A program made the position numbers and the translations under genes. The notes below the pieces were generated by a model. It was not told the origin of the DNA, made no database searches, and saw only the letters and a list, made by a program, of their open reading frames with translations. A stretch of 64,000 bases of DNA from Candidatus Rifleibacteriota bacterium (GTDB lineage: Bacteria > Muiribacteriota > Ozemobacteria > Ozemobacterales > Ozemobacteraceae): NCBI GenBank assembly GCA_018818125.1, contig JAHISQ010000132.1:1-64000 (forward strand), written 5' to 3'. Positions 44,653-64,000 of the stretch are shown piece after piece; position 1 is the first letter of the stretch, and each line of letters starts with the position of its first letter.

Positions 44653-44686
44653 TTGTAATTAGAGCTAATTTATTCGGGAGGTATTT

Positions 44687-45154
44687 ATGAAAAAGATTCT
44701 TATATTACTATCCGTATTCGCTCTTCTTATCGTTACCACGGGTCATGCTCAGGACTATCAAGGCGTATACAACCATCTAAATCGGTTGTGCCATATGTAT
44801 CTTGGCCGTGGCGATCTGCCAGAACTGCAGACATGGGTTTATCAAATCGTAAAGGGCCAGGTTAGAATGGAAGAAGTTGTCAGCGGTATAATAAATAGTA
44901 AAGAGGCTAATGACAGGCGTGCATCATTGATTGCAAGCGATACTGCTACAACTACCGACGAAACATCCACGACCGAAGATACGACTGCAACAGACACTGC
45001 CGCAGTGGCATGGCCTCCGAGACCGCCACTTCCTCCCGGCCTCGGATTCTTCCCCGGACCAGGTTTTGCCCCAGCGGTTGTGCTCCTTCCCCCCCCAGGT
45101 CCCCATCCCGGCACAGGATTGCCCATTAGTCCAGTTGAAGGCCTTGGGCAATAA
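44687..45154 (+). CDS. Exported DUF4214-like protein with GLG C-terminal motif
   Basis: 155 residues. Signal peptide (1-21, ending GHAQ). Residues ~25-75 resemble a DUF4214 unit (YLGRGDLPELQTWVYQIVKG; VVSGIINSKEAND). A Thr/Ala/Asp linker (~85-110) and a Pro/Gly-rich region (~110-145) follow. The last residues are SPVEGLGQ, matching the ends of the proteins at 49493 and 63046. DUF4214 is often found in surface or S-layer-associated proteins. GGGAGG precedes the ATG. Confidence 0.65.
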   Translation: MKKILILLSVFALLIVTTGHAQDYQGVYNHLNRLCHMYLGRGDLPELQTWVYQIVKGQVRMEEVVSGIINSKEANDRRASLIASDTATTTDETSTTEDTTATDTAAVAWPPRPPLPPGLGFFPGPGFAPAVVLLPPPGPHPGTGLPISPVEGLGQ

Positions 45155-45173
45155 AAACAAGTAAATTGATAGT

Positions 45174-45231
45174 AAAAAAGTCTGGTTGCCTCGCTAGTTT
45201 GAAGAAGCTTCGAGCGGCCAGGCTTTTTTAT
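45174..45231. terminator. Bidirectional terminator between convergent genes
   Basis: AAAAAAGTCTGG/CCAGGCTTTTTT outer stem with one G-U pair, plus inner pairing. Overlaps the 3' end of the pseudopilin gene at 45194. Confidence 0.7.
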
Positions 45232-45799
45232 TATAAACAGATTTTAATTTCATATTTGCAAATACCGGAAAGAAATAGGTGGAGAAACTTTGTGCCGGCC
45301 CATATCTTTGATCAGAATTTAATCGCCCAGCTTCAAGAGAGATTTTAAATCCGATGTTTCCTGGCATACTGGCAGTATCGCCAGATTCGCCTTGAAGCAG
45401 ATCCAGAGAAAACAATTTACATCTATCTTTTAAGAGGAATATACTACGGGTCTCGTCTTCGCGCTTAAGACTCCCGGCTGCAGAATCAAAGTGATAGACA
45501 ATTTTCTGCAGCTTATCATTATGTCTGCGATAAAAAGAGAACTCTGTTTTTTCTTCATTGACTTTCAAATATTCGGACCAGTTTTTGCAGTCACCGTCGA
45601 GAAAGTCTGAATTACAAATATCCTCATTCAGGTAGCGAAAAACCTGCCATACTTCAGCAACATTTTCAGCTTTTTCAATAATGCGCAGATAACTTCTTGA
45701 ATACTGAAAAAGAAAACGATAGAATCCAAGCATAAATAAGGATGCAATTGAGAGGGCTACAAGGATTTCGACCAGTGAAAAGCCTTTTGCTTTTTTCAT
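45194..45799 (-). CDS. Pseudopilin, PilW/GspJ-like
   Basis: 201 residues. Type III (prepilin) signal KAKG/FSLVEILVALS: Gly at -1, Phe at +1 and Glu at +5, then a ~20-residue hydrophobic helix. The size, beta-rich remainder and position after a GspI-like gene suggest a minor pilin of PilW/GspJ kind. Its start overlaps the upstream gene by four bases (ATGA). Last gene of the four-gene minus-strand operon that begins at 49234. Confidence 0.78.
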   Translation of the reverse strand: MKKAKGFSLVEILVALSIASLFMLGFYRFLFQYSRSYLRIIEKAENVAEVWQVFRYLNEDICNSDFLDGDCKNWSEYLKVNEEKTEFSFYRRHNDKLQKIVYHFDSAAGSLKREDETRSIFLLKDRCKLFSLDLLQGESGDTASMPGNIGFKISLEAGRLNSDQRYGPAQSFSTYFFPVFANMKLKSVYNKKAWPLEASSN

Positions 45800-46239
45800 C
45801 TCCCACCTCGTTTGTTACTGCGTTCTTTTCTCCAGTGAAATGAAAAAGGTGAATTGGCTTCAACTACTGTAATTATATCGTAGACAGTTTCTGCCTTTTC
45901 GTTTTCAGAAATTTCAATTACTCTGACAAAATTATCAGGAGCTGAGGAATAGCAGATTGATCTGGAGTGATTATCATCAGAAAGAAAATCGGATTTTCCA
46001 CTTTCTGATGGGAAATTAAGAAATTTTCCGCCCTCCTGACCTTCGATATCAAGCGTCTGTAACTGATCTATAAGTTCGCAATTGCATGAGTAAACAAGTG
46101 ATCTGGTCTCAATGTTTTTTACATTGTCGATACTCATTGAATATATACCTATTACAGGCAAACTAGCTATTGCAAAGCATGCGACTACCATAATGATTTC
46201 GATCAGGGTAACGCCTTTTCTGGCAAACCAGTTACTCAT
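45796..46239 (-). CDS. Pseudopilin, PilV/GspI-like
   Basis: 147 residues. Prepilin signal ARKG/VTLIEIIMV with Glu at +5 and hydrophobic helix; the rest is short (CELIDQLQTLDIEGQEGG...). The ATG at 46239 is eight bases from AGGAG and overlaps the upstream stop (ATGA), so the ATG seven codons earlier is rejected. Processing would need a prepilin peptidase such as that at 37377. Confidence 0.78.
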   Translation of the reverse strand: MSNWFARKGVTLIEIIMVVACFAIASLPVIGIYSMSIDNVKNIETRSLVYSCNCELIDQLQTLDIEGQEGGKFLNFPSESGKSDFLSDDNHSRSICYSSAPDNFVRVIEISENEKAETVYDIITVVEANSPFSFHWRKERSNKRGGR

Positions 46240-48317
46240 CTGATTGTCTCCTGGCTCCATTCAGAATAACTATCTGAAAAAATGACGGAATAGAGACTAG
46301 TTCTCTTACTTTGATTTTCCTGATTGGTTGGATCAAAATAGTCTGCAAATGTTATGCAGCCGCCCTTGCGCCAGTCAGAGGGCTTCAGGGTGTTGACGGC
46401 AACAGTTCCAAAAATTCTTACGCTACTGCTTTTGGGGGCTATGACGGTACCTCCCAGTGCTATAAGGCTGGAGTATATGGGCTCATTGTCAGCCTCTAGG
46501 ACTATGTCACCGGTCAGCGAAATTAAAGATACCGGCCCGTCGATCTCGGGTTTTGGAATTCCACCTTTAACTTTGATGTTTTTGCGACAGCACAGAACTC
46601 CTGGAGAACGTAATTTTAATGAGGCTGGCAATTCAAGATCATCACTGTTTACAAAAATTGTTTGCCCGCGTAGATTTAGAGTGTTATCAGTCAGATTGTG
46701 TTTGAAAAACTCTTCAGAATTATCGTATGTTTCGGTAAAGCGTCCAGAAAAAAGCTTTTCAGCAGTAAGCTCATGCAAATTTATACTTTCCGGGGCTTCT
46801 GCATCAGGAAAATTGAATTTAAACTGTTTGCCGCTAACAAGGTAGTCAGAATTTCCGGCAGCTTCAGAAATGCCACCCTGTTCTTCAAAACGCTGCTTAG
46901 GTGGAATAGTCATTTCCTGATTTGATAAGTAGTCGAATATTTGATTATATGGCTCACCGATTAACTGGCAGGCATAAGAAGAGTAGTTTGCTCTGCTGCC
47001 AAACAGTTTCTCAAGCGTAATTCCAGAGTCAATCTGCAGACTTTCTCCGCCAGTGTTTGGTGAAAAAATTCCTGGGAGTGGTATCAAATCCCAAAAGCTG
47101 ACATTTGCTCCAGAGACTGCGTAATCAACTGGTGACATTAACAGTACCAACAAGCCATCAATGGTGTCGTCATTATCAAAATCAACTACAATGGCAGAGT
47201 AATATGGAAAAACACTGAGAATTTGCCCAATAAGAATTCCCGGAGAAGGGTTGTTCATTGTTCCGCTGAGATGAAGAAAACTTGAATTCATAGTTCTGGG
47301 CGAGTTTCCTGCAAAAAACGAATCCAATGTACCATAGGGATTCATGTTTGTGCCTTTTGAATCTTGATCATAAAATCCACCAAAAGTTGCCTGAATTTTT
47401 AGCGAAGCCTTTTTCGAGCCATTATTAAAGGAAATCCCTGCTGAAAATCCACTTGGCAAATTCCTAATAAGAAATTTTGGAAATGATTTTTCAGAAAGAT
47501 TCTCCGGATAGAAGTGAAATACTTCGCCGGTATTAACATCACTTCCGGATGTAAGATGCAGCTCAATCGTCTTATCACCACCAAGAAAAATCATACCGTT
47601 CTTTTTTAAATCAAGAGAGCTTGCTTTGCTTGAATTGTTGACAATTAACGGAGCCTCAACCCCAATAAGGGTGTCGTCTGGTGGTAAAAGACTGCCGTCT
47701 GACCTGTTCCTAAGACAGTTATAGCCTTTTGATGTTTCGTTAGTCGCCTCAGGTTGTTTGATGAAAAGAGAAAATCTCGACAAGACTGGCAGGGCCATGC
47801 AGTTACATGTTGCTTCACGTAAAAAACGGTAACTCTTACGCATCTTGCTCCAGAGTCCACGGCCAGTAGTAAGCTCAAAGCTAAGATGTATCTGAAATGC
47901 TTTTTCCTTTGAGTCACGCCAGAAAGAGGGAGTTAGCTGCCGAGGTGACTGCAAAATCAGAGAAAAATTGCTTAAAGTGATAGATGGACCATTATCAGGA
48001 CTCAAGAATTCAAGTTTCAGAGAAATATCATTTTCAATATTAATAGGGAAATTGCTGGCGGCGGTTTCTACTACTTTTATAAAAAGGGCACTTTCCGGAT
48101 TAGCCAGTTCTGCTCCAAGTTTATTGAAAACCCGATCGGCAATCTCTCTGCTGCTAAGATCCATAAGCATCGAATGCGAGTGTGAAAAAACCTGGTTGTT
48201 CTTTTCTGCCATGGTTGAATGCAAAGAAAAAGACAGAATGCCAAGAACGAGAAAAACGGCAATCATTATGAGAAATATAATGCTGCCTTTTTTGTCGGTA
48301 GACTTGATTTTACGCAT
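46236..48317 (-). CDS. Large PilX/GspK-like membrane-anchored protein
   Basis: 693 residues. The N-terminus KKGSIIFLIMIAVFLVLGIL has the hydrophobic helix of PilX/GspK proteins and lacks Glu at +5, as many of these do. The large exported part (~45-693) has beta-rich segments; the end (SLIALGGTVIAPKSSSVRIF, GTVAVNTLKPSDW) looks like the repetitive shell-type beta domains often found in such proteins. The start ATG shares a base with the upstream stop (TGATG); the longer frame to 48371 overlaps that gene and lacks an SD. Same position and size as the 697-residue protein at 53796. Confidence 0.7.
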   Translation of the reverse strand: MRKIKSTDKKGSIIFLIMIAVFLVLGILSFSLHSTMAEKNNQVFSHSHSMLMDLSSREIADRVFNKLGAELANPESALFIKVVETAASNFPINIENDISLKLEFLSPDNGPSITLSNFSLILQSPRQLTPSFWRDSKEKAFQIHLSFELTTGRGLWSKMRKSYRFLREATCNCMALPVLSRFSLFIKQPEATNETSKGYNCLRNRSDGSLLPPDDTLIGVEAPLIVNNSSKASSLDLKKNGMIFLGGDKTIELHLTSGSDVNTGEVFHFYPENLSEKSFPKFLIRNLPSGFSAGISFNNGSKKASLKIQATFGGFYDQDSKGTNMNPYGTLDSFFAGNSPRTMNSSFLHLSGTMNNPSPGILIGQILSVFPYYSAIVVDFDNDDTIDGLLVLLMSPVDYAVSGANVSFWDLIPLPGIFSPNTGGESLQIDSGITLEKLFGSRANYSSYACQLIGEPYNQIFDYLSNQEMTIPPKQRFEEQGGISEAAGNSDYLVSGKQFKFNFPDAEAPESINLHELTAEKLFSGRFTETYDNSEEFFKHNLTDNTLNLRGQTIFVNSDDLELPASLKLRSPGVLCCRKNIKVKGGIPKPEIDGPVSLISLTGDIVLEADNEPIYSSLIALGGTVIAPKSSSVRIFGTVAVNTLKPSDWRKGGCITFADYFDPTNQENQSKRTSLYSVIFSDSYSEWSQETIR

Positions 48318-49234
48318 CAGTTTCCATTTTCCGAGTCTTTCAGATAAGGCGGTCGCAGATGACCGGGCCAATACAATGGCGGAATCGATTTTCCTTCCGG
48401 TCCTAATATTATAGGCAACTTACCCGGTCCAGCGATAATTTTACCACCGATATCGTTAGCATACTTTTCAAGAAGTCCAACGGCTTCAATTAATCTGAGC
48501 GGAATAAGAGTTCTGGGTGGTTCGATATGATTGCCTTCACTGTCAAGTATTTCCAATTTTCCATTCTCGCCTGGTTTGGTGCTGCCGCCAATTGATGCAG
48601 CAAACTTTTTAATTCTTGCGTCGATTTCGTCAGATGTAAGAAATAATCTTCGCTTTGTATCTGGTATTGAGGCTCCAAGGGCTTCTACAGAATTAGCTGA
48701 AGGTTTTTCACCATTTGGATAATCCTCACCTTTTATGAAAGCCGTTGTAATTTTGCGATAGTCTGTGAGTGAAATAAGCTCATGTCTGGATGGAATATAT
48801 TCAGAAATTGCCAGTTGGCCGTTATTATCTTTGTCGTGATTCGAAAAATATTGATCAGCAGAGATGGAAATCGGAAATTTTCCGGCTTCGCAAAGACTTG
48901 TAAATTGTGCCTGGCTCATCATGCCTTCAGGCCTACCCACAGTTTTTATGAAGATTTTGGCCAGAGAATCTGTAAAATCTATGAGAGCAAAATTTGTATA
49001 CTTCGGATAGTCGCTTAATTCAATTGTTTCTTTCGTAGTCTGTGGGTTTTCAAGAACAAGATCACCAGAATTTTCAAATTTGTCGGTTGTCTCAGATTGC
49101 TGTTGCAGGCGTATTACCGGGGAACTGTCTTCGGCGTGGAGTTTACCTCCACCTGCTGAAAAAAACTGCGGAGTAAAGCACAAAGCAAGAAGCATACATA
49201 ATACTGGCCTTTGCATCTTTTTTGTTGCAAACAT
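48317..49234 (-). CDS. Exported EF-hand protein
   Basis: 305 residues. Signal peptide (~1-28). One canonical EF-hand loop DKDNNGQLAISE at 134-145 implies Ca2+ binding. The remainder has Pro/Gly-containing repeats (LLEKYANDIGGKIIAGPGKL) without known domain. First gene of the pseudopilin operon; calcium-binding minor subunits are known to stabilise some type IV pili and type II pseudopili, so a similar role is possible. ATG at 49234 behind AAAGGTG; the GTG three codons earlier falls within that SD. Confidence 0.72.
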   Translation of the reverse strand: MFATKKMQRPVLCMLLALCFTPQFFSAGGGKLHAEDSSPVIRLQQQSETTDKFENSGDLVLENPQTTKETIELSDYPKYTNFALIDFTDSLAKIFIKTVGRPEGMMSQAQFTSLCEAGKFPISISADQYFSNHDKDNNGQLAISEYIPSRHELISLTDYRKITTAFIKGEDYPNGEKPSANSVEALGASIPDTKRRLFLTSDEIDARIKKFAASIGGSTKPGENGKLEILDSEGNHIEPPRTLIPLRLIEAVGLLEKYANDIGGKIIAGPGKLPIILGPEGKSIPPLYWPGHLRPPYLKDSENGN

Positions 49235-49384
49235 TTTATACACCTTTCTGGTAAGCTCATCTGCTTCATCAGATTATTTAGATTGCAGATTAATGGCTAT
49301 GCCTAAGACAAAAGACCGGTATAAGCAAAAGTATGCGACATAGAATTATCTATGACAATCTTTCCACTCAATTTGCCTGAAACT

Positions 49385-49411
49385 GTTACCGCAAAATACT
49401 GTTATGTGACA
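49385..49411 (-). promoter_or_regulatory. TGTCACA box, weaker ECF-type promoter
   Basis: TGTCACA (49411-49405) then N16 and TAAC on the minus strand, 150 bases before the EF-hand start. The -10 match is poor and the leader long. Confidence 0.3.
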
Positions 49412-49492
49412 AATCATTGAACTCAAGAATAAGTTTCACACTGCATCTCTGCTGCTTTATCATTAATCACCATATTTTTCGCTGAAGGAATT

Positions 49493-50026: not shown

Positions 50027-50073
50027 GTTGAACTCTCCTTGTAAATTTTTTGAATTTCGGATTCAGTTATTAT

Positions 50074-50100
50074 GACAGGCAAATCAAAAATTATGTGACA
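50074..50100 (-). promoter_or_regulatory. ECF-type promoter, TGTCACA-N16-TGTC
   Basis: TGTCACA (50100-50094), N16, TGTC (50077-50074) on the minus strand; 48 bases before the start at 50026. Confidence 0.5.
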
Positions 50101-50431: not shown

Positions 50432-50461
50432 TTGACACCCTTTGTTTCAGTATGCTATATT
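50432..50461 (+). promoter_or_regulatory. Sigma-70 promoter of the HEAT-TM gene
   Basis: TTGACA (50432-50437), 18-base spacer ending TGC, TATATT (50456-50461). Confidence 0.72.
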
Positions 50462-50527
50462 AGCCGCAAAGAATGTATCTGTGGCTAAGGAAGCGGGTTT
50501 TTGAGCCTTTAAGGCAAGGATGAGCTG

Positions 50528-52876
50528 ATGCTTGACAAAGAAATTATCGAAAATCTCCAGCTTCCTTTTGCTTCGTTTCGACTTTTTGCACTTGAACAGG
50601 CGATAAAGACAGGAAATACCAAAGAACTCCTTGCTTTGCTTGGCCAGTTGTCTAACTCAGAAGACAGTTCTGAATGCCAGGTTCTTTTGCCTTATGCTAT
50701 AACAGCAGTCAAAAACCGATTAGCCGGAGCCAAAGACACCAGTTTTAATGCAAACGACAGTTCAAATCTTTCTCAGGCTTTTGCTGACGCATCTGGTGAA
50801 GATCAGATTGCGATATTAATCGGGCCAGCCCTTTCAGATATTGCAGATCATGTAAAACATGTTGCAGAATGGCTTAAGGCGGCAAGAAATGATGCTGTGG
50901 CAGCTTTGGTTCTCTCAACTTTTTCACGCGTATGGCCTGATAGCGAATTAGGTGCACTTAAACCTTTACTGTTTTCTGAGAGTCTCAGTATCAGAATGAA
51001 CGCTTTGCAGATTCTAATTCAAAAATCTCCAACATTAATTACCAGCAATCTACCTGAATTATTAATCAGTAACGATCCTCGATTTCGAGCACTGGCAATC
51101 AGAGGGCTTGCTTCTATCGATATGGATGAAGCTTTAGCTCACTTCGATTTTTTATTGAATTCAGCTTCTTCAGAAAAAAAACTTTCGGCATTGCAGATCA
51201 GTATTCATCTTCCCTTCGCCAGGGTATGCCCATGTCTGGTTAAATTTATGGCAATCGAACAGGACAAATCGCTGTTAGCGAAAGCAGGCGTTCTGTTGGC
51301 GAGCAACCCCGATCCGGATGTACCATTCAGATTATGGGAAATAGCCATGCACTCTTCTTTTAACAAACAGGAAATTATTAAGAAGATTATCCAGTCTGTT
51401 TGTGACGAAATAAAGATCACCAGAATGCTGAACGGAAAAGAAGATGCTTATATGCTTCGCCTGCAGCGCTGGATATACCGCTATGGCGCCGCGACTCTGC
51501 TCCGAGAATACATAGACCTTTTGCCTGGAGCTTCTAATCGTCAGGCTCTAGAAATGGAAATCCGCTTAAAAAAATTACTGAAGAATGATGGAGTTCGCGA
51601 GGTTTTTGTTGAAGCCCAAAACTGGTCGGTTTCAGAGAAAGCCCTGAGTTTTATCAAAAACCTGGTTCAGACAGAATCAGAAACTGTTACTGAAGATAAA
51701 TCTGCTAAGAATTTTTGCGAACTGTCTGTTGACGAACAGATTCGCTATGTGACATTGATAGATGATCCTGAAAAAACAGATGCCGCAGAAGTTTTGCTGA
51801 AAATCATGCAGAACATAATGACTGAACCAGATTTGTCGGCAACAGCATTTAGATCGGCGTTAAGAATGGGACGTAGTGATTTTGTTGAGGTTGCCAGAAC
51901 AGCATTGAGTTCAGATAATCCAAATCTTCAATCGGCTGCTCTGGAATACATGGCAGAGTTTGCTACTGATGAGCTTTTTATAAAGCTTGGGCAATATCTG
52001 AAATCTTTAGACCTGCGCGTAAAAAGAACTGCACTACGTGTCTTGAAAAAGCAAGATCAGGATCAGGCAGTATCCTCGTTAAAAGCTATGCTGTCGCAAA
52101 ATGATATGCAGCAATATCACTCAGCCATTGCCTGTATGATTCATTTTCCGTTTTCTTCGGTCAGGCCATTATTGCTGGAATTTTTGCAGAATTTTCAGAG
52201 TCCGGATTTGTTAAGTGCTGGCTTATGTCTTTTTCAGGCAAATCCTGATCCAGAAAGTCTTTACTTGCTGTTTAGACTCCAGCAGCAGATAGAATATGAT
52301 GGTAAAACCCTTGTCGGTGAGGTATTAGATTCTGTTGCCGAATCTCTGAGAATAGATAGACGGCTTGGTGAAAATTTTTCCATGGACACCGCGAAACTGG
52401 AATGGCAGAAACGATATCGGCAAGAACTGGAAAAACAAAGAACTCCAGCGCCTTATTCTCTCCAAATGACTTTTCCAGAGACATTGAGCGCATTTAAAAA
52501 ATCCTCCATGGATTTTGTCAATGAGCTTTATGATAGATATAAAGGCGCGTTTAATATTTATTTTGTCGTTGTCGCAATTCTTTTTATTGTCGCCGGGATT
52601 AGACTTTACTGGCCTGTTTCGTCTGATCAAAACAAGATTAGAGCCGGAGCAATAGCACAAAACAGCTTGATAATAGATGGAACGGTTACTATGATTGACA
52701 GCAAAGGCGAAAAGATTTTTCTTGATGACACAGCAGGAAAGCAGCATGTGGTCCTTGCGGCACGAGGAACATGGAAGAAGAACCTGAAAAATACCAGATT
52801 AAAGCTTAAAGTGACTCCGTTTCGAATTAATCAGACTGGACTGATAATCTCTCAGTTTCAGGCATTTGAAGAATAA
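50528..52876 (+). CDS. HEAT-repeat protein with C-terminal membrane anchor (paralogue A)
   Basis: 782 residues. Cytoplasmic HEAT-like helical repeats over ~10-650, e.g. SIRMNALQILIQKSPTLI and LDLRVKRTALRVLKKQDQDQ. One membrane helix (~675-695, YFVVVAILFIVAGIRLYW) and a ~85-residue C-terminal part resembling an OB-type barrel (LIIDGTVTMIDSKGEKIFLD). No signal peptide, so the solenoid is inside and the barrel outside. Clear paralogue of 57196-59538; QAVSSLKAML and ACMIHFPFSSVRPLL recur there. Followed 16 bases later by a STAS gene. Likely a scaffold linking cytoplasmic switch proteins to the envelope; inferred. Confidence 0.78.
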   Translation: MLDKEIIENLQLPFASFRLFALEQAIKTGNTKELLALLGQLSNSEDSSECQVLLPYAITAVKNRLAGAKDTSFNANDSSNLSQAFADASGEDQIAILIGPALSDIADHVKHVAEWLKAARNDAVAALVLSTFSRVWPDSELGALKPLLFSESLSIRMNALQILIQKSPTLITSNLPELLISNDPRFRALAIRGLASIDMDEALAHFDFLLNSASSEKKLSALQISIHLPFARVCPCLVKFMAIEQDKSLLAKAGVLLASNPDPDVPFRLWEIAMHSSFNKQEIIKKIIQSVCDEIKITRMLNGKEDAYMLRLQRWIYRYGAATLLREYIDLLPGASNRQALEMEIRLKKLLKNDGVREVFVEAQNWSVSEKALSFIKNLVQTESETVTEDKSAKNFCELSVDEQIRYVTLIDDPEKTDAAEVLLKIMQNIMTEPDLSATAFRSALRMGRSDFVEVARTALSSDNPNLQSAALEYMAEFATDELFIKLGQYLKSLDLRVKRTALRVLKKQDQDQAVSSLKAMLSQNDMQQYHSAIACMIHFPFSSVRPLLLEFLQNFQSPDLLSAGLCLFQANPDPESLYLLFRLQQQIEYDGKTLVGEVLDSVAESLRIDRRLGENFSMDTAKLEWQKRYRQELEKQRTPAPYSLQMTFPETLSAFKKSSMDFVNELYDRYKGAFNIYFVVVAILFIVAGIRLYWPVSSDQNKIRAGAIAQNSLIIDGTVTMIDSKGEKIFLDDTAGKQHVVLAARGTWKKNLKNTRLKLKVTPFRINQTGLIISQFQAFEE

Positions 52877-52892
52877 TAAGGCAGGGAATATT

Positions 52893-53237
52893 ATGAATTT
52901 CAGTATTGTTCATGAGCAGAATGAAGATGTAGGCATAATGGTAATAAGCGGATATTTTTCGTCTGAAGCCGGCGAAATGCTTTCGCAACAGATCGAAGAA
53001 TTACTGCGCAACGGGACCATCAAATTTATTTTTGATTTTGCCGCCTGCACTTCGGTTAATAGTCCTGGAGCAGCCTCGATTCTTGACATTACTCTTCGCA
53101 TCCATGATGACTTTCGAGGAAAAGTTTTCATTACAAGTCTCAGAGCACTGATGAAAAATTTGTTTGAGATGGTTGGAATTTTTCCTCTTGCAGGTTCTGC
53201 CGAAAAGATTGAAGCGGCATTGATAGAACTTGCATAA
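52893..53237 (+). CDS. STAS-domain anti-sigma factor antagonist-like protein
   Basis: 114 residues, single STAS domain: VISGYFSSEAGEMLSQQIEE, FDFAACTSVNSPGAASILD with putative phospho-acceptor Ser57, and MVGIFPLAGS near the end. The ATG at 52893 follows AGGGAA; the longer frame from 52866 overlaps the upstream gene and is rejected. Close paralogue of 62633-62989 and more distant from 3174-3533. Operon with the HEAT-TM gene. Confidence 0.86.
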   Translation: MNFSIVHEQNEDVGIMVISGYFSSEAGEMLSQQIEELLRNGTIKFIFDFAACTSVNSPGAASILDITLRIHDDFRGKVFITSLRALMKNLFEMVGIFPLAGSAEKIEAALIELA

Positions 53238-53243
53238 AAAAGA

Positions 53244-53270
53244 TGTCACAAACAAGCGGATTTGTCAGAC
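53244..53270 (+). promoter_or_regulatory. ECF-type promoter, TGTCACA-N16-AGAC
   Basis: TGTCACA at 53244-53250, AGAC at 53267-53270, 35 bases before the lipoprotein ATG at 53306. Confidence 0.42.
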
Positions 53271-53305
53271 TAAGTAATTAATCCATTTTTATACAGGAGG
53301 CTACC

Positions 53306-53710
53306 ATGAACATGAAATCTTTGGGGAAAGCTCGTCCAGTGCTGTTTTTAGCCATAATGCTGATTGTGTCTATTTCTTTGACTGGTTGCAGCGAAGTCAT
53401 TGAAGGCATTATGAAGATCTTTGAAGGTGTTAAACAGATTGGTACTGCGATTTTTGGTGGTGGCAGTAAAGACAAAGCAACAACAGACAAAGCAACAACA
53501 GACAAAGCAACAACAGACACAAAGAAAACTGATGATGCAAAAGCAGAAGCTGACGCTAAAAAAGTGAAAGAAGATGCTGCTGCTAAGAAGGCAAAGGAAG
53601 ATGCTGCTGCTAAAAAGGCGGAAGAAGATGCTGCTGCTAAAAAGGCAGAAGAAGATAATAATCGGGACCTTAAGGTGCCTCAAAACCCCGATGGTTCATA
53701 TGACATCTAA
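53306..53710 (+). CDS. Lipoprotein with tandem Ala/Lys/Glu repeats
   Basis: 134 residues. Lipobox SLTGC (Cys28). After a short conserved-looking part (SEVIEGIMKIFEGVKQIG) the chain is repetitive: three DKATT units, then three EDAAAKKA[KE] units forming a charged helix, ending VPQNPDGSYDI. Similar rods are seen in TolA-like and wall-tethering lipoproteins. AGGAGG precedes the ATG. Just upstream of the second pseudopilin operon. Confidence 0.75.
   Translation: MNMKSLGKARPVLFLAIMLIVSISLTGCSEVIEGIMKIFEGVKQIGTAIFGGGSKDKATTDKATTDKATTDTKKTDDAKAEADAKKVKEDAAAKKAKEDAAAKKAEEDAAAKKAEEDNNRDLKVPQNPDGSYDI
53471..53515 (+). repeat. Three exact 15-bp tandem repeats
   Basis: Unit GACAAAGCAACAACA three times, encoding DKATT, within the lipoprotein gene. 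Confidence 0.95.
53570..53650 (+). repeat. Three near-identical 27-bp tandem repeats
   Basis: Unit begins GAAGATGCTGCTGCTAA and encodes EDAAAKKA[KE]; copies differ at a few third positions and one Lys/Glu codon. Confidence 0.95.
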
Positions 53711-53795
53711 TCATAAGATGAGCATTTTGGTGTTGGAGAACTAAGAAGCGCAAATGTAGATTTTACGACAACGTTTTATGATATCAGTGCAATAA

Positions 53796-55889: not shown

Positions 55890-56338
55890 AAAGAGGATTT
55901 ACGCTTATAGAAATATGCATCGGAATGCTTCTGCTGTCTCTAACTCTGCTCGGATTTTTACGAATAAACAGTTTTGCCAGTCATTCTGCCATGGATGCTT
56001 ATTATAAATTCATGGCACAACAGCTTGCCAATGAGCCGATAGAAGTATTCAGAGCAATGGGCTATGAGAGAATTAAAAATTTAGACAAAAAACCATTGCC
56101 TGGATATCCGATTGGAACAACAGAATCGATCCAGGAAGAAGTATCTGGCGAACGCTACCCAGTAGAGACCTCTCTTTTCTCAAGAACAATAGAACTCGAG
56201 AAGGTTGAAGAAGATGGCGTAAAGGGTTTTCTCGTCAAAGTAAGTGTCTTTCCTTCCGGGAGCAATAAAATATCGGCGTGGTTGGTTCGACAGATGGTGA
56301 ATGCTACTGGCCTGGTAATTGAAGAGGTAACCCAGTGA
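55886..56338 (+). CDS. Pseudopilin, PilV/GspI-like
   Basis: 150 residues. Minimal leader MKRG/FTLIEICIGMLLLS with Glu at +5; PilV/GspI-like size. ATGA overlap with the upstream stop, with AGGAGG in the upstream gene's end. Middle gene of the three-gene pseudopilin operon. Confidence 0.82.
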   Translation: MKRGFTLIEICIGMLLLSLTLLGFLRINSFASHSAMDAYYKFMAQQLANEPIEVFRAMGYERIKNLDKKPLPGYPIGTTESIQEEVSGERYPVETSLFSRTIELEKVEEDGVKGFLVKVSVFPSGSNKISAWLVRQMVNATGLVIEEVTQ

Positions 56339-57108
56339 AGTCAGCCAATTTAAACCGTCGAGCTTTTACTCTGATAGAAATAATGATTGTAACAATTTGT
56401 GCAGCCATTTTGATTATTCCTGCCTTGGTTATTTTTTCTTCTGGAACTAAAACCTCTTTGCGCGGCATGGCCAGAGTTGATACCGTTCTGGAGGCCAGAA
56501 TTATAATTGAGCAGGTACAGAGCGATTTAAAAGCTGCTTATCTTGAGTTTGGCGAAAAGAATAGTTTTCGCTTGGATTTTAACAATTATGTAAAAGACTC
56601 AGGGTCCTATCCATACATTGAATATCAGTTCTTTCGCTACCCTCAACAGGGTAATGCCGAAGATTTATTAAGGATTACCGACAAGGTTTCGCGGCGCCGG
56701 CTTAGTACGATCAATTATCGAGTTGAAGCTGGAGATAACAAAGATTTTCCTCAGCAGAAAACTTTGCGGCGAATTGAAGTTTTTCACCCGGGGCATCCAC
56801 TGGCTGCGCAATATCCAAATGGCTTCGAGAAAGTTTTAAGTAAAAAAGTCAGTTTTTTCAGCATCAAGCCATATCAGGTAGAAGATGAGTATCAGACTTT
56901 GTATTCAATAACATTGCAACTGATAGACCTTGCTCCTGGCAAATCTGTTGAAATGGCTGAAACTACCGGAAAGCTTTCGGAAGGGAACTCGCAGATCAGT
57001 CTTGTCGATTTCTCGTCAGTTGTTTATCCTGAATTTTTAAAGAACCAGAATCATTATTACTATCATAATATGAACTGGTTTGATTCTCTGGAATCTTCGG
57101 AAGACTGA
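56335..57108 (+). CDS. Pseudopilin, PilW/GspJ-like
   Basis: 257 residues. Leader NRRA/FTLIEIMIV has Ala instead of Gly at -1, with Glu at +5. Prepilin peptidases tolerate Ala at -1 less well than Gly but often cut it. Beta-rich remainder, PilW/GspJ size. GTG start overlapping the upstream TGA (GTGA). Confidence 0.8.
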   Translation: MKSANLNRRAFTLIEIMIVTICAAILIIPALVIFSSGTKTSLRGMARVDTVLEARIIIEQVQSDLKAAYLEFGEKNSFRLDFNNYVKDSGSYPYIEYQFFRYPQQGNAEDLLRITDKVSRRRLSTINYRVEAGDNKDFPQQKTLRRIEVFHPGHPLAAQYPNGFEKVLSKKVSFFSIKPYQVEDEYQTLYSITLQLIDLAPGKSVEMAETTGKLSEGNSQISLVDFSSVVYPEFLKNQNHYYYHNMNWFDSLESSED

Positions 57109-57181
57109 TCTGTTATTGTTTTTGATTCGTTCACTTGCCAGAAAATATGCTCAGATAGAAGCTTTTCAGCAAGGGTTCTGG

Positions 57182-57187
57182 TAAAAT
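57182..57187 (+). promoter_or_regulatory. Putative -10 for a leaderless transcript
   Basis: TAAAAT ends 8 bases before the ATG at 57196, which has no SD. A start at the ATG itself is possible. The -35 is poor. Confidence 0.3.
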
Positions 57188-57195
57188 GTTAAGAC

Positions 57196-59538
57196 ATGAT
57201 TACCGAAAGTGAAATAATTGAAGATCTTGGCTCAAATACAACTGCCTTACGTATTTCAGCTATTGAAAGCGCAATTCGATTCGGCAGATCAGCGCGACTT
57301 TTGGATGTCTTAAAGGCGCACGAAAAGTCAGAACCTGATCCGAGTTGTCAGGAATTACTATTTCTGGCTGTTAAGAAGCTAACCGCTCTTCGAGACGACT
57401 CCAAAACAGAGGATACCTCTGATTGGCTGGAAATCTTTTGTTCACAGGAATTTCCAGGACTTTCTCCAGATAGAAAACTGGAAATTGTTGCCATGTTAAG
57501 TGAAAAGCAACGACAGGTTGCAGCGGATAAAGCATTCACAATGATCTTCGCAAACGAACCAGAAACTATTGTTGCACAGATCATTACCTTTTTTTCACCA
57601 TACTGGGGAAAAGATAGACTTGGCAAATTGGTTCCATTGCTGAAGTCAAAAGATCTTTCGGTTCGATGCGCATGCGTTGAGGCCCTGTGCGATCATGCAT
57701 CAGAGTTGATTCTGCCGAGACTGCCAAATCTGTTGTTGCACAATGATTCCAGAATTCAACTTCTGGCTGTAAAATTTTTGACCAGACTTGATCAGTTTGA
57801 AGCTATATCTTATCTGGAGCTTATTCTACTGGGCCCGGATTTAGAAAAAAAGGTCAGAGCATTAAGGTTGTGCATTTTCATCCCGTTTGACCAGGTCAAA
57901 AATCTATTAGTCGAATTTATTGCCAAAGAATCAAATGAAGAACTTATCAAGAGAGCCGGGCTGATTTTAATTAACAACCCAGATTGCGAAGTGCCTTTCA
58001 GGCTTACTGAAATTGCTGATGCGGCAACAGCAGAAAAATCTGTTTTAGTCAAAAAGTTGATTAAGGCAGCCTGTCAAAATCTTAGAGATTCTGGCGTTCT
58101 GGGCGACAATTTTAACAGTTATCTGGAAAAATTAAAAAATTGGCTCAAATGTAGAGAATTGAAGAAATGGGTTCAGCAGTGGATTTTTCTATTTGAAAAT
58201 TCACCAGAAGAGAAGCAACCTGAATTATTGCTTCAGCTCAAAGATTTTGCTTCTGGAAAAGACAGTCAGGAAAGTTTGCGTGAAGCAATGGGCTGGTCAT
58301 TAAAAGAGTCTACTTCAAAGGTTATTCTCAAAGCACTTGAAACAGAACCGGAATCCCCGAAAAATAATGACCAGCAAAGCTTGGAGTATTTTTCCACACT
58401 TGATGAAAGTGCTAAAATTCGATTTGTGCAGCTTTGGCCACAATCTGATTCGCATGAATTCGTCGAGTTTTCCAGGGCTTTCTGGTTGCATTCATGGTAT
58501 ACGCCGGATGTAGGAGCTGCATTTCTTAAAATGGCATTAAGCCTTAACCTGGACAATTATATTGAATTTGCGCGCACTTCTTTAAACTTGGCAAACGAAA
58601 ATATTCAGGTCTCTTCCATAGCGTATCTGCTTAAGTTCGACTCTGATTACTTGGCCACTCAGCTTGGCAAATTTCTTTCGCGTTCTTCCTTAAAGATCAA
58701 GATGTCAGCCTTAGGTGCATTGCAAAAGATAGATAAAGAACAAGCCTTATCAACCCTTAAAGCCATGCTGTTTCAGAAAGATCTGACCGCACAAAAAGCA
58801 GCTTTAGCCTGTATGATTTATTTTGATTTTGCTGTAGTCAGGCCTGTTCTATCTGAATTTCTCGAAGCCAATAGAAATTCAGAAATATGGCATTCGGCAT
58901 TGATTTTGTTGCAGGCAAATGTAGAGATAGAGAATTTGTATTGTCTCTTTAAATTGCGCAACAAAGCCAGTGCAGAGAACCTTTCCCTGGTTCTAGCAGC
59001 TGAAAAAGAGCTGTGCGAAAGACTCTTACAGGAAAAACTCATTGCCGCAGGCAATGTTGAAGCATTATACAACCAGTTCAAGTTGCGAGCTGAAAAGGAA
59101 AATATTTCAGACAAGAATCCTCCCGCTTATGCGTTAAAACGTGTAAAGTCTGGCTCTGAATCAATCGGTGCTGAAAACAACGGCAGAAAATTTTTAATAG
59201 TCTCAGGATTAGTAATATTTCTGGTAGTTTTGGGAATTGGTTTTTCAGGAAATCCTGAAGTAGAATATGGTTCGACAATTGTTGCCAAAGCATATTCCTC
59301 GCCGGTTCTTGAACGTAAAATATTCAGAGCTACGCTGGTGTCTCCTGGCTACAAAGATGGTTATCTGCATGTAACCAGCAATAATGTTCCGATTAAGATT
59401 TGTGCACCCTACGGAAAATTTGACTGGCTAAAACCAGGTGATGATGTTGAATTAACTGTTGCGATAACGAAACCAGATCTATCTACTTCGAGTCATACCT
59501 TGCTGTCTCTGTCTCGTATTGGCAGGCCATTACGCTGA
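57196..59538 (+). CDS. HEAT-repeat protein with C-terminal membrane anchor (paralogue B)
   Basis: 780 residues, same layout as 50528-52876: N-terminal ALRISAIESAIRFGRSARLL, HEAT repeats to ~640 (SVRCACVEALCDHASELILP; EQALSTLKAML; ACMIYFDFAVVRPVL), one membrane helix (~665-685, FLIVSGLVIFLVVLGIGF) and a ~90-residue external end (LHVTSNNVPIKICAPYGKFD). No SD; translation may be leaderless. It follows the second pseudopilin operon after 87 bases. Convergent with the SpoIIE gene. Confidence 0.78.
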   Translation: MITESEIIEDLGSNTTALRISAIESAIRFGRSARLLDVLKAHEKSEPDPSCQELLFLAVKKLTALRDDSKTEDTSDWLEIFCSQEFPGLSPDRKLEIVAMLSEKQRQVAADKAFTMIFANEPETIVAQIITFFSPYWGKDRLGKLVPLLKSKDLSVRCACVEALCDHASELILPRLPNLLLHNDSRIQLLAVKFLTRLDQFEAISYLELILLGPDLEKKVRALRLCIFIPFDQVKNLLVEFIAKESNEELIKRAGLILINNPDCEVPFRLTEIADAATAEKSVLVKKLIKAACQNLRDSGVLGDNFNSYLEKLKNWLKCRELKKWVQQWIFLFENSPEEKQPELLLQLKDFASGKDSQESLREAMGWSLKESTSKVILKALETEPESPKNNDQQSLEYFSTLDESAKIRFVQLWPQSDSHEFVEFSRAFWLHSWYTPDVGAAFLKMALSLNLDNYIEFARTSLNLANENIQVSSIAYLLKFDSDYLATQLGKFLSRSSLKIKMSALGALQKIDKEQALSTLKAMLFQKDLTAQKAALACMIYFDFAVVRPVLSEFLEANRNSEIWHSALILLQANVEIENLYCLFKLRNKASAENLSLVLAAEKELCERLLQEKLIAAGNVEALYNQFKLRAEKENISDKNPPAYALKRVKSGSESIGAENNGRKFLIVSGLVIFLVVLGIGFSGNPEVEYGSTIVAKAYSSPVLERKIFRATLVSPGYKDGYLHVTSNNVPIKICAPYGKFDWLKPGDDVELTVAITKPDLSTSSHTLLSLSRIGRPLR

Positions 59539-59546
59539 TTATACGA

Positions 59547-62432
59547 CTATGCTGAGGTTCTTTCCAGAACGACTGCAGTAAAATCATCGGGCTGTGGTTC
59601 ATTTGTCTTAAAGAATGGGTGCTCAAATATAATTTTGTTGCAGAATTTATCTATCTTTTCATTATTGAGTCGGATCAGATAATCGCTAAACTGAATAAAG
59701 GAATCAATTTCGCTGCTTTCTGGCATGGATTCAATTAAGCCGTCGGTATAAAATATCATTTTTTCATTTGGCTGCATCTGAAATTCATTCAGAGTAAATC
59801 TTAACTTTTCTCTCATACCGAGAGGTAATGATGGCTGAGTCTTGACCATTGTAAACTTTGCATCGTTGGTTAGAAGAATTGGATAAGTCTGCCCAAAATT
59901 TATTATACGAATTATATTAGTCTGAATATTTATTTCGGCAACACAACAGGTCATGAAAAGCTTCTTTCTCATCGTTTTAAAAATAGTCGTATTTAGAAGA
60001 ATAAAAATTTCTTCTAGCTCAAGATTCTTTTGCATACCTACCAGAATAACTGATTTGGCCATTGCCATAACCAGGGCGGCAGGAATTCCATGACCGGTCA
60101 CATCGCCTAAGATCACTATGAAACGGTTTTCATCAACAAGCATATAATCGAAATAATCTCCACCAAGATCAGAAGCCGGCTTAGACTGACCAAACACGCG
60201 ATAGTTACCAGCTTCCAGTGTCGTTGTCGGAAACAATCTTTCCTGAACTACTTTGCCCATGCTACTTTCTTCAAGGCTTCCCATCATCTGATTGAAGACA
60301 TTAGTAAGGTCACCCAGTTCATCTTTGGCCTGTGGCAACAACCGCAGATCAAGCTGTCTGGATTCAAGAGCCTGCATGCCTCTTTTAAGCTCTGAAACAG
60401 GAATAAGAAAAGTATCTGAAAGAGCAATTCCGATAAACACTGTAGTAAAGAAAATGAAAATCACTACTGAAAAGACCCATTCTTTTATGGAGGTTAAGTG
60501 CCGTTCGATTTCATTGACTGGGAACAACGCCATAAATGAAACTCCAGAAACATTTTTACCAGGGTGAACTGCTGCCAGATAAGATTGTCCTGAAATTTTC
60601 ACCTGGGCAAAAAAGTCTACCTGTTGAATTTTTGCCCGATTGGCCAGGCCAGCCAGCTGGCTTGAAACCTCTTCTGAACCAGGATACCAGATAGCGGAAT
60701 CATCTATTTTAGCAAAAATGCGAAATTTGCCATGCTGAAATGATTTTCGGCTCCTGATGATGGCTCGAGATAGATATTTTTTAACTAATAGCTCATATTT
60801 CTTGTTGAAGAAAATAAAGGCTGCAGGGTGATTGGGTTCTTTGAATACATCCCAATACCAGATATTCTTATGACTGGTTAATTGCACTGTGTGTAAAACA
60901 TCAGGCTGTTCAACCAGTTTTTGCAAACCGACTTCTGGTGTGTCAAAAATCATTTCTGCTTGAAAATCTGGCCTTCTTATCTTTCCTTCGTTTTCCGTTG
61001 CCAGTCGCTCAGAAAGATACTTCTCGATGCAGACTCCTGAAAACGCACGTATCAGAGCAGACGAAACATTGTCTGCTCCAGAGGATGATAATATTTCTGA
61101 GCCATTCAGATTAATCAGCTTAAAATCAATTTTATCCATGTTCCAATTATCACTAACCAGTTCTTCTAAGACTTTTTTGGGATCTTGTCGCAATTTTGGT
61201 TCAGCGCAAATATTCCGCACATATTGTAAAAGTCGATTTTTTTCATCGTTGAAAGAACTGTCAAGATCTAACAGAGCTTCTCTGGCATTTTTTTGACAAT
61301 CAGAAATCATGGCGGCACGACCATCTCTTATCGAAAGGTATGCAAGAAACAAGATGCTGATAGTCGGCAAAAATACTGCATACAGAAACAACGCCACCAG
61401 CTTGGCTGGAATAGGCATATAAAAAGATTTGCGTTGAATTATCCATCTGAAAATCAGCGTTAAAAGCAGAGTAAAGCCAAAAATCCAGATTGCTACAGCA
61501 GTGAGCACAAATTCTCTGGAAAAAACAGACTTGAGTTGTTTGCCGGCAATTATTTTGGCAGTAGAGGACTTAAGCATTACCCAGATAAAATCATTGTCAA
61601 TTACGTAATCCTGTTGCTGATCCTCAAGCAAACGCCAGAGTCGACTGGCACGGTCAGGAGTCAGCCGCTTGTCGGTATAAATGTTATTGTCAGATGAATC
61701 CCTGATTGCGGTTTGAATTGGGTAATTCAGTGATTTTGAAAAAAGCTGGCTTATAAGTTTCTCTGGCGAAGGTATGTCCCAGACAATACATATCGTTCCG
61801 CCATTCATAGCTGGCATATTGATGTTCCAGAATATCAGGCCTGAGCGCCCGGAACAGTAAAATCGATATGATTCTCCAAGTCGATTTGCAATCAGCGAAC
61901 CGATAAATTCCTTGCCAAAAAGCCCTTTAATAGCATTAAGAGATTTTCTGTAAGCCTGATAAACTTGTCCTCTTTTTTGAAGATCTCCAGGATAAATCCA
62001 ATTGGTTGCAATAGCATCCCAGAGCCTGCTTATAAGAAATCTTGATCTTAGTTTGACATTTTCTGGAGTTAGAAGTTTCCCGTTTTGATCAAAACAGTAA
62101 AGGTCAAAATCAAAACCCCATTGTTGTTTTGCACTTTTGCTAAATGAAGTAAGTCGCTCAGGAGTTACTGGTCGCGAAAAAATCTGTCGATGTAAGCTGT
62201 TAAAGCGGGTGTTAATGTAATATTCAGGGTCAATCTGGCAAACAAGATCATTTAAAGAGTTTTTGATGCTTTCCAGAGCTTTATTCTGATTAACTTCATT
62301 CTCATTCTCCAGGTAATACCAGCCGAGAAAGCCAGATACAAGGAACGGAACTATACAGAATATGAATGAAAAAATTACAAATCTAAAATACGGACTGGTT
62401 GATCTGTCTTTCTTTTGACTTTTCTGTTTCAT
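59547..62432 (-). CDS. SpoIIE-type PP2C phosphatase with two-part membrane sensor and HAMP
   Basis: 961 residues. Membrane helices at ~18-40, ~305-330, ~345-370 and ~655-680 bracket two large extracytoplasmic regions (~45-300 and ~375-650). HAMP at ~680-735. PP2C/SpoIIE phosphatase domain ~735-958 with metal motifs GGDYFD (~757), GDVTGHG (776-782), YTDG (895-898) and PDDF (948). It should dephosphorylate a STAS protein, the neighbour at 62633 being the obvious substrate, in response to an external signal. The double sensor is larger than in RsbU/RsbP types. Weak SD (ACAGG). Confidence 0.88.
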   Translation of the reverse strand: MKQKSQKKDRSTSPYFRFVIFSFIFCIVPFLVSGFLGWYYLENENEVNQNKALESIKNSLNDLVCQIDPEYYINTRFNSLHRQIFSRPVTPERLTSFSKSAKQQWGFDFDLYCFDQNGKLLTPENVKLRSRFLISRLWDAIATNWIYPGDLQKRGQVYQAYRKSLNAIKGLFGKEFIGSLIANRLGESYRFYCSGRSGLIFWNINMPAMNGGTICIVWDIPSPEKLISQLFSKSLNYPIQTAIRDSSDNNIYTDKRLTPDRASRLWRLLEDQQQDYVIDNDFIWVMLKSSTAKIIAGKQLKSVFSREFVLTAVAIWIFGFTLLLTLIFRWIIQRKSFYMPIPAKLVALFLYAVFLPTISILFLAYLSIRDGRAAMISDCQKNAREALLDLDSSFNDEKNRLLQYVRNICAEPKLRQDPKKVLEELVSDNWNMDKIDFKLINLNGSEILSSSGADNVSSALIRAFSGVCIEKYLSERLATENEGKIRRPDFQAEMIFDTPEVGLQKLVEQPDVLHTVQLTSHKNIWYWDVFKEPNHPAAFIFFNKKYELLVKKYLSRAIIRSRKSFQHGKFRIFAKIDDSAIWYPGSEEVSSQLAGLANRAKIQQVDFFAQVKISGQSYLAAVHPGKNVSGVSFMALFPVNEIERHLTSIKEWVFSVVIFIFFTTVFIGIALSDTFLIPVSELKRGMQALESRQLDLRLLPQAKDELGDLTNVFNQMMGSLEESSMGKVVQERLFPTTTLEAGNYRVFGQSKPASDLGGDYFDYMLVDENRFIVILGDVTGHGIPAALVMAMAKSVILVGMQKNLELEEIFILLNTTIFKTMRKKLFMTCCVAEINIQTNIIRIINFGQTYPILLTNDAKFTMVKTQPSLPLGMREKLRFTLNEFQMQPNEKMIFYTDGLIESMPESSEIDSFIQFSDYLIRLNNEKIDKFCNKIIFEHPFFKTNEPQPDDFTAVVLERTSA

Positions 62433-62632
62433 GAACCTGTTCCAAAACTTAATAAATACAAGGACTGCTCAAAACATTAAGCCGCAGAAGTAACACTGCA
62501 TTCACCCTCATCTTACCATTAATCGCCAAAGTTTTCTTCGAGATCTAGCAAAAATCCTTTGTCTACAGCAGTGCTTATCCTATTGTAATCATCATTGGCT
62601 AGTCTCAACAGACTATGCTTCGCAATTGTGAG

Positions 62633-62989
62633 TCAGGCAAGTTGGTTAATAATCAGAACCGCTTCTTCAAAAGAATTGGTAGATGACGCCAACGGGAATA
62701 TGCCTGCCATTTCGAAAAACGACTTTTTAAGATTGTTTAGACCAAATATAACTATTGCTCCATGGTGATCTTCTACAATCTGAAGGCATAAATCAAGAAT
62801 ATGGGCGACAGCAGGGCTATTAACCGAACTGCAGTTTTCAAGATTGACAATAAAATTGCACTTCCCAGATTCCAGAGCTCCAGAAATTATGCTGGAAAAT
62901 TCTACGGCAGCCTCAGCATTGAAGTAACCAGACTGTCTGATTAGAAGATAGTCGCTGGTTGTTTCAGTAGTAATCTCGAAGTTTTGCAA
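62633..62989 (-). CDS. STAS-domain anti-sigma factor antagonist-like protein
   Basis: 118 residues, STAS domain with Ser58 in SSVNSPAVAHILD; similar to 52893-53237. TTG start with GGAGAG six bases upstream. It sits between the anti-sigma-like FecR gene (56 bases upstream) and the SpoIIE phosphatase (200 bases downstream), the usual company of partner-switching proteins. A separate HPK-type anti-sigma kinase is not present in the window. Confidence 0.87.
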   Translation of the reverse strand: MQNFEITTETTSDYLLIRQSGYFNAEAAVEFSSIISGALESGKCNFIVNLENCSSVNSPAVAHILDLCLQIVEDHHGAIVIFGLNNLKKSFFEMAGIFPLASSTNSFEEAVLIINQLA

Positions 62990-63045
62990 TCAGTTCTCTC
63001 CATAGGCAATTTGTTGATTGATCAGACATGACTGGCAAAAGTTTT

Positions 63046-64000
63046 TTAGTTGCCGAGTCCCTCAACGGGATTGATAAGCTCTTGACTGTTCTCAAGTGTA
63101 GATTCTGGTTCTTTGTCTTTGTTAAGCGTTTCGCTTGCTGGAGCAAATGTTTTTGGCGGTTTTTCAAGACTGCTATTTGTCTGCGAATCGGGAGATTTGT
63201 CGGTTTGCTGGTTCTGAACCGGAACCTGGTGTCCAGCAGCAGGATGCAATGCCTTGAGTGCCTTTGCTGGAGACTTGATAACTCTATCCCATGTGGCTTG
63301 CAGGCTTTCGTTCATATCTACAAAAGTGCCACTTGCCAGTTCATAGATGTAATTTTCTCCAGATTTGATTTCAGTAATTTTCTTTGAGTCAATCAGTTCA
63401 ACTTTTCCCTCGAAAATGCGGATCAGAGAAGAATCTCCATGAGTGACGACAAGAAACTCGGTCCCAATAATACTGATTTTTGCCCCTGGAATGGCTATTT
63501 TCACAGGAATATCCCGATGTATGATCCAGAGCATTCCGTCTTCCAGGGCTATTTCGTTTTGCTTGATGCTAAACAAAGAATCTTGAGAAACTCTACTCTG
63601 AAAATATGATGAGCTATCAGACAGACTGCAGCAGATCTGTGATTCTACCTCTGCCAGAAATGAGCGGGAAGAAAGCTTTCCATCATGGGCTTGTGACTGT
63701 GCGGCAATGTCTACCAGCCTGCCGGTTTTCAGATAAAAATCGCAAACCGGTGTATTGTGTGAACCAAAATAGAACAAAAACAGAATTATACAGGCAAAAG
63801 CCGCCGTCGTTAGGGGTTTCCACGACATTGTGATAAATCGAGAGATAACATCTACGATGGATTCTTTTTTGTTCTGTTGGACGGGGAATTTAAAGTTAAA
63901 CTGCTGGTCTGGCCACGGAGTAAAATCACTGAACCCTTTTTTCAAGGCTTTCACCAATTTTATATGGCTCTCAAAATCAGAGCGACATTGCGCGCATTCA
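63046..64000 (-). CDS. zf-HC2/FecR anti-sigma-like membrane protein, 5' partial
   Basis: The frame is open to the right edge, so the true start is outside. The first visible residues, ECAQCRSDFESHIKLVKALK, match the C-terminal half of a zf-HC2 anti-sigma zinc finger. Counting from 63957, a membrane helix lies at ~47-66 and a FecR domain at ~75-220 (GMLWIIHRDIPVKI; AKISIIGTEFLVVTHGDSSL; IRIFEGKVELI). A Pro/Gln/Ser/Thr-rich tail ends with INPVEGLGN, the C-terminal motif of the proteins at 44687 and 49493. It probably binds an ECF sigma factor encoded just upstream. Confidence 0.8.
   Translation of the reverse strand, partial: ECAQCRSDFESHIKLVKALKKGFSDFTPWPDQQFNFKFPVQQNKKESIVDVISRFITMSWKPLTTAAFACIILFLFYFGSHNTPVCDFYLKTGRLVDIAAQSQAHDGKLSSRSFLAEVESQICCSLSDSSSYFQSRVSQDSLFSIKQNEIALEDGMLWIIHRDIPVKIAIPGAKISIIGTEFLVVTHGDSSLIRIFEGKVELIDSKKITEIKSGENYIYELASGTFVDMNESLQATWDRVIKSPAKALKALHPAAGHQVPVQNQQTDKSPDSQTNSSLEKPPKTFAPASETLNKDKEPESTLENSQELINPVEGLGN

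Follow-up and report, generated by a model that had tools for sequence, protein, structure and literature searches.

Why should two exported proteins of unrelated sequence and a membrane-bound regulator end in the same short tail? The question is raised by the first 64,000 nucleotides (hereafter the window) of contig JAHISQ010000132.1 from a Candidatus Rifleibacteriota bacterium (GenBank assembly GCA_018818125.1), where a first-pass annotation made from the sequence alone noticed three proteins within 20 kb that share the C-terminal motif P-x-x-G-L-G-x-stop. Our computational analysis shows that such tails are matched, cluster by cluster, between exported proteins and the anti-sigma factor of an extracytoplasmic function (ECF) sigma factor, and that in this locus the transcription units carrying the tail have a common predicted promoter.

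Results

Three tailed proteins and an anti-sigma factor

The three tails are in-frame C-termini followed by real stop codons (CCAGTTGAAGGCCTTGGGCAATAA, CCCGCGGCAGGACTAGGGGAATAG and CCCGTTGAGGGACTCGGCAACTAA; Table 1), so the shared motif stands as it was described. The claim that the sequences are otherwise different holds for tail proteins 1 and 2, since BLASTP of one against the other gives SPVEGLGQ/NPAAGLGE as the sole alignment (E 1.9), confined to the last eight residues; protein 1 has a weak, sub-threshold DUF4214-like match and protein 2 contains two DUF4214-like stretches, judged by eye. Because synonymous codon positions differ among the three tail DNAs, a recent DNA repeat was rejected as the origin of the tails. 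A role as Shine-Dalgarno sequence or in translational coupling to the next gene was likewise rejected by position, as tail 1 is followed by a convergent gene and the next gene after tail 2 begins 250 bp further on. Clear signal peptides were found on proteins 1 and 2, in line with the proposal that all three are exported or have an external C-terminus, whereas protein 3 is not secreted and is a membrane-anchored FecR-type anti-sigma factor.

The full gene of this anti-sigma factor (348 aa) extends beyond the end of the window, and its product carries, in order, an N-terminal zinc finger with invariant C3, H29, C33 and C36, a single transmembrane (TM) helix at about residues 93-110, a FecR domain (PF04773, 24.9 bits against a cut-off of 24), a disordered linker and the tail. 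In the structure model residues 278-348 are disordered, with a short low-confidence helix at 342-347 within the tail; N, S, D or T with proline and acidic residues after it is a classical helix N-cap. A zinc finger inside and one TM helix would place the tail outside, and the protein is thus predicted to present it at the periplasmic end of the disordered linker. The overlapping ECF gene, with the anti-sigma gene directly downstream, encodes a sigma factor of 185 aa in which only regions 2 and 4 were detected. A TonB-transporter gene was not noticed in the cluster, although no search aimed at it was made.

The literal motif is not a proteome-wide tag and belongs to one locus only. The scan suggested in the first-pass annotation shows no enrichment, the DNA pattern having 6 matches in the 6.06-Mb genome against 11 for the reversed control. 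The tail genes account for three of the six; at the other three, two of which were checked in one orientation only, no gene end was found, and a genome-wide sorting tag was therefore rejected. True C-termini with P-x-x-G-L-G-x are expected about 0.09 times per 5,000 genes, and finding three among the ~20 genes of a 20-kb region has a chance probability of about 7e-12 if the motif is taken as named, or of about 1e-5 if a post hoc choice of any shared 4-of-7 pattern is allowed for.

Tails matched within related clusters

Orthologues of tail proteins 1 and 2 were not found in 36 relatives (five of the same genus), where the literal pattern fell below its control in most genomes. The neighborhood was for this reason followed through a 711-aa pilin, whose homologues were found in Candidatus Riflebacteria and around which ECF sigma factors, zinc-finger/FecR anti-sigma factors, GspI- and GspJ-like pilins and exported proteins recur. 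The tails of the anti-sigma factor and of the exported proteins are alike within a cluster and different between clusters (Table 2), both in clusters of the own type (type A) and in a second, more distant type with a pilin about 24% identical. The bodies of the tail proteins are unrelated between clusters (40-aa repeats, TPR), which identifies the tail as the shared element. In a third type (type B), with a different large pilin, exported proteins and some anti-sigma factors have PDxE ends.

Table 2. C-terminal tails of anti-sigma factors and exported proteins in individual clusters.
Cluster	Type	Anti-sigma tail	Exported tails
Own cluster	A	NPVEGLGN	SPVEGLGQ, NPAAGLGE
L112	A	NPTEVLGQ	TPNSVLGQ, NPPQTLGQ
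L113	A	NPEEAIGE	NPEDAISNQ
L115	A	DPEDALDHLD	TPEDAVDSQE
L117	A	NPEEVFGQ	NPEGAFSE
L122	A	SPEEAIESEH	NPDSAVESNP
L168	Second	RLDDGF	SLDDGL
L171	Second	KDIDDAF	KDIEDKF
L172	Second	RVDDGF	TTDGF
L173	Second	FTEGY	FGEEY

When anti-sigma tails were permuted among clusters (7 residues, unfiltered), the observed value of 271 compared with 145 +/- 21 and none of 20,000 permutations was as good; inside type A, 3 of 20,000 were. With 6-residue tails filtered for signal peptides, across 32 clusters of all three types, the corresponding counts were 0 of 20,000 overall and 11 of 20,000 when shuffled within type. The filtered test was weaker for type A alone (459 of 20,000), because two L112 partners have no recognizable signal peptide and L116 and L120 contribute only loose matches.

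The pattern [NSDTA]-P-x3-[LIVF]-x(1-5)-stop, defined after the tails were seen, is present in every one of the 10 type-A anti-sigma tails and in each of the 11 exported tails listed, whereas about 25 of roughly 1,070 other proteins (2-3%) have it. It persists as P-x3-hydrophobic behind anti-sigma linker residues that show no evident conservation. P-x-x-G-L-G-x is not the general motif but this cluster's version of it. The first-pass annotation had also named absence from orthologues as evidence against the motif; the literal motif is indeed absent in relatives and close orthologues are lacking, but the counterparts in homologous clusters have equivalent matched tails. Taken together, the conserved position and the occurrence on unrelated proteins support the earlier idea of a C-terminal recognition tag.

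Several other C-termini were recorded in these clusters. Type-B exported proteins, several of them lipoproteins (L126, L127, L183 and L196), have P(x)DxE ends (NPDSE, DPDSE, PADKE, HPNDKE and SPSDRE), while some type-B anti-sigma factors end in PSPDQE or KPDSE or contain SPDQE (L180, L185). A lipoprotein of the own genome (window 53306-53710) ends in NPDGSYDI. An exported family of the second type (L167, L168, L172, L173 and L174) always ends in -LW, and the one member tested with Pfam, in L172, has an EF-hand.

A common predicted promoter

The bipartite motif TGTCACA-N16/17-GTCW occurs six times in the whole genome, and three of the sites precede tail gene 1, tail gene 2 and the sigma/anti-sigma operon (Table 1), the other three being within genes or antisense to them. 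The reversed-pattern control gave 14 matches, so the genome total is not above chance; what gives the motif weight is that it stands at the very three transcription units that bear the tail. The motif was first spotted by eye and then tested; an exact-word bipartite motif search over four upstream regions gave no result. For the stricter form with CGTC, 7 of 13 matches in six relatives fall in these clusters, preceding tail genes in L113, L115, L117 and L122 as well as the L119 exported candidate, the L120 ECF gene and an exported tail-less protein of L115. At the sites of the own genome the position before GTC is not fixed as C. Hence the sorting, protease or docking tag of the first-pass annotation remains a tag that is additionally tied to regulation, since one of its carriers is the anti-sigma factor that partners the ECF sigma factor, and predicted promoters of that sigma factor lie 5' of the other two genes.

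Other promoter-like sequences were seen by eye: a different pair, TGTAACA-N16-CGTAAC, lies 5' of type-B lipoprotein genes in L126 and L130, and T[GT]ACA-N16-CGTC lies 5' of ECF genes in second-type clusters (L167, L168 and L171-L173).

Table 1. Positions of the genes and predicted sites discussed (numbering of the window, which equals that of the contig).
Feature	Position	Strand	Remarks
Exported tail protein 1, 155 aa	44687..45154	+	Signal peptide MKKILILLSVFALLIVTTGHA, Pro-rich linker, tail SPVEGLGQ
Tail codons and stop, tail protein 1	45131..45154	+	
Exported tail protein 2, 177 aa	49493..50026	-	Signal peptide, tail NPAAGLGE
FecR-type anti-sigma factor (tail protein 3)	63046..64000 in window	-	Tail NPVEGLGN; gene runs on to 64092
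ECF sigma factor gene	64089-64646, beyond window		Sigma70_r2 6e-16, r4_2 4e-9
Predicted ECF promoter TGTCACA-N17-GTCT	44626..44653	+	Begins 61 nt 5' of tail protein 1 start codon
Predicted ECF promoter TGTCACA-N17-GTCA	50073..50100	-	Begins 74 nt 5' of tail protein 2 start codon
Predicted promoter of ECF/anti-sigma operon	64738-64711, beyond window		
ComZ-like (GspK-like tip) minor pilin, 711 aa, beta-solenoid	46236..48371	-	Anchor gene of the cluster family
GspI/PilV-like minor pseudopilin	45796..46260	-	Kept beside the ComZ-like gene in other clusters
GspJ/PilW-like minor pseudopilin	45194..45799	-	Kept in other clusters
Exported protein without tail	48317..49243	-	EF-hand-like loop (by eye), ~40-aa repeat

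The pilin neighborhood

The tails are tied to pseudopilin clusters, as the suggested link to pseudopilin operons had implied. The model of the 711-aa pilin has a long N-terminal helix (residues 29-90) and a strand-rich C-terminal part, and the only significant PDB match of a fold search was ComZ (6qvi; E 7e-6, prob 0.98); given the poor global TM-score of 0.17/0.22, this match supports the fold class only, and a profile search against PDB sequences gave no match. Thermus ComZ is a GspK-like pilin that has been argued to be a pilus-tip protein (PMC6561018). Nine secretin matches in the genome indicate that an outer-membrane channel is available for such a system.

The ~40-aa repeat (..FAxxxGYTTxxDxxGRLxVKDxxGxxVxLPP..) of the tail-less exported protein is also present in 1-4 copies in tail proteins of L113, L115, L117 and L122, and no Pfam family fits it well. 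The tail genes are separated from the sigma/anti-sigma operon by a second pilin cluster (50528-62989) with HEAT proteins, STAS proteins, a large pilin and a SpoIIE-type phosphatase with HAMP, a module that resembles a partner switch and is repeated in relatives.

Discussion

Judging from the matched tails and the coincident promoters, we propose that the tail may be a cluster-specific docking peptide, common to the exported products of an ECF regulon and to the anti-sigma factor that controls it, with competition for a receptor providing feedback; we consider this proposal about evenly poised between right and wrong. Exported products and anti-sigma factor would bind one periplasmic receptor through the tail, most plausibly the ComZ-like/GspI-like/GspJ-like pilin-tip complex encoded alongside, since this is the constant neighbor. 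The two would compete for that receptor, and its occupancy by the product would shift the anti-sigma factor into another state and so set sigma activity to export demand, much as FlgM links FliA to flagellar export. More tentatively, and with rather less confidence, each pilin-tip cluster may read a C-terminal peptide code of its own, in which the tail directs a protein to one ComZ/GspIJK-like tip and the tailed anti-sigma factor measures its occupancy. If true, this would make the tail a linear signal, specific to its cluster, for export of the pilus or type II kind and coupled to transcription, and would amount to a simple design for gauging export in which the regulator bears the tag of the cargo. 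A short linear signal confined to one locus and one pilin-tip cluster is testable by peptide binding and tail swaps. In the open-access literature, no precedent was found for an anti-sigma factor that shares a C-terminal motif with exported proteins.

A number of observations weigh against the competition proposal. The receptor is putative, and the other cluster proteins are candidates for it alongside the pilin tip. The pairing is weaker, at the level of the motif only, in L114, L116 and L120; the exported candidate of L119 has no proline tail, the match is absent in L169 and L174, and the end of the L118 anti-sigma factor was masked. L112 (G017:C150) looks decayed, having lost its ECF gene and retained pilin fragments. 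In L121 (G017:C116, continued in L207), exported proteins have similar ends with no ECF gene noted in 34 kb and no anti-sigma gene found, which means that tails of this kind are not regulatory in every case. The evidence comes entirely from sequences of uncultured genomes, in which genes were called with a simple program of our own; several motifs are post hoc definitions, and relatives outside the phylum were covered by one pattern-based scan only. L112 also holds a FecR protein without zinc finger and a frame-shifted remnant resembling tail protein 2, and its three ..LGQ tails are still there; the three exported proteins of L121 end in NDFLND, EEFMKE and PVFLKEK beside a ComZ-like pilin, and one of them has a FecR domain with a signal peptide in place of the zinc finger.

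The main rival, which we regard as unlikely overall and as most serious for tails ending in F or Y, is that the tails bind as ligands to a periplasmic protease of the PDZ type or to a PDZ domain like that of GspC. A free exported protein would then activate or titrate the protease, leading to cleavage of the anti-sigma factor, whose own tail would put it on the same PDZ site. AlgW does bind the C-terminus of periplasmic MucE or of mislocalized outer-membrane proteins before it cleaves the anti-sigma factor MucA (PMC8545111), and the PDZ domain of EpsC is reported to be needed for a type II substrate to be secreted (PMC12369372). Moreover, second-type tails end in F, Y or L (DDGF, DEAF, FTEGY, DDGL), as is common for PDZ ligands. 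However, type-A tails end in Q, N, E, D, H or P and type-B tails mostly in E, whereas DegS and AlgW ligands end in hydrophobic residues. Nor was any protease family seen in the set of families that recur in the clusters, a survey that did not take in PDZ genes elsewhere, and Muc/Rse anti-sigma factors are not known to carry the C-terminus of their activator.

It is improbable, to a further degree, that the tail is a sorting or assembly tag only, which brings all carriers including the anti-sigma factor to the same pilin machine with neither competition nor signaling. The L121 cluster, with its three similar-ended exported proteins (one FecR) and no ECF gene noted nearby, fits such a tag, but in the own cluster the tail and the predicted promoter go together, and a membrane-anchored anti-sigma factor is not expected to need export.

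We give little credence to the tails being functionless leftovers of one exchanged C-terminal segment that drift together through recombination or gene conversion within a cluster. Exchange could produce similarity within clusters, and there are cases of homology between tail proteins from the same type of cluster; on the other hand, the synonymous differences among the three own tails, the persistence of the P-x3-hydrophobic pattern behind an unconserved linker and the unrelated bodies between clusters all speak against it. Finally, a chance likeness of short Gly-rich C-termini, for which one could cite the lack of genome-wide enrichment and the choice of the motif after it had been seen, is hardly credible in view of three tails in 20 kb where about 0.09 were expected, the reappearance of matched tails in other clusters to a degree that permutation does not produce and the coinciding promoters.

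Comparison with known systems

The proposed arrangement has features of several known systems. As in FecI/FecR/FecA, an ECF sigma factor is combined with a membrane regulator that has a FecR domain and whose periplasmic part receives a signal. Known FecR proteins are signaled by STN domains of TonB transporters; the FecR protein described here differs in its predicted disordered periplasmic linker and in a short tail common to exported proteins. A C-terminal tag on otherwise unrelated exported proteins recalls PEP-CTERM, GlyGly-CTERM/rhombosortase, LPXTG and the C-terminal domain of type IX secretion. The tail differs from these sorting tags in that it forms the last residues with no TM segment or basic end after it, is specific to a single gene cluster and is borne by a regulator too, and the original statement that it matches neither LPXTG, PEP-CTERM nor the type IX domain was correct and extends to GlyGly-CTERM.

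The promoter sites have the same signature as those of ECF41 sigma factors, TGTCACA-n16-CGTC (PMC3426412), although the C-terminal regulatory domain that is fused to ECF41 proteins is missing from the sigma factor described here, whose gene is followed by a separate anti-sigma gene. In Pseudomonas aeruginosa, the available text on minor pilins and PilY1 describes tip minor pilins that feed back through the membrane sensor FimS-AlgR on how their own operon is transcribed; that system is a two-component sensor rather than an ECF/anti-sigma pair, and no shared C-terminal tail is mentioned in that text (PMC5979040). Control of an ECF anti-sigma factor by the C-terminal peptides of exported proteins is known from DegS/RseA and AlgW/MucE/MucA (PMC8545111), where the tails are hydrophobic PDZ ligands (YYF, WVF) of the protease and are absent from the anti-sigma factor, which in our clusters is itself tailed.

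The closest logic would be that of flagellar assembly. The anti-sigma factor FlgM carries the export signal of the products of its sigma factor FliA, and the state of export sets sigma activity. FlgM is small, cytoplasmic and exported by a type III system, whereas the protein described here is a membrane-anchored FecR-type anti-sigma factor with a periplasmic C-terminal tail in a pilin cluster. The two are not homologous, and the likeness lies in an anti-sigma factor that shares the signal of the exported products of its own regulon.

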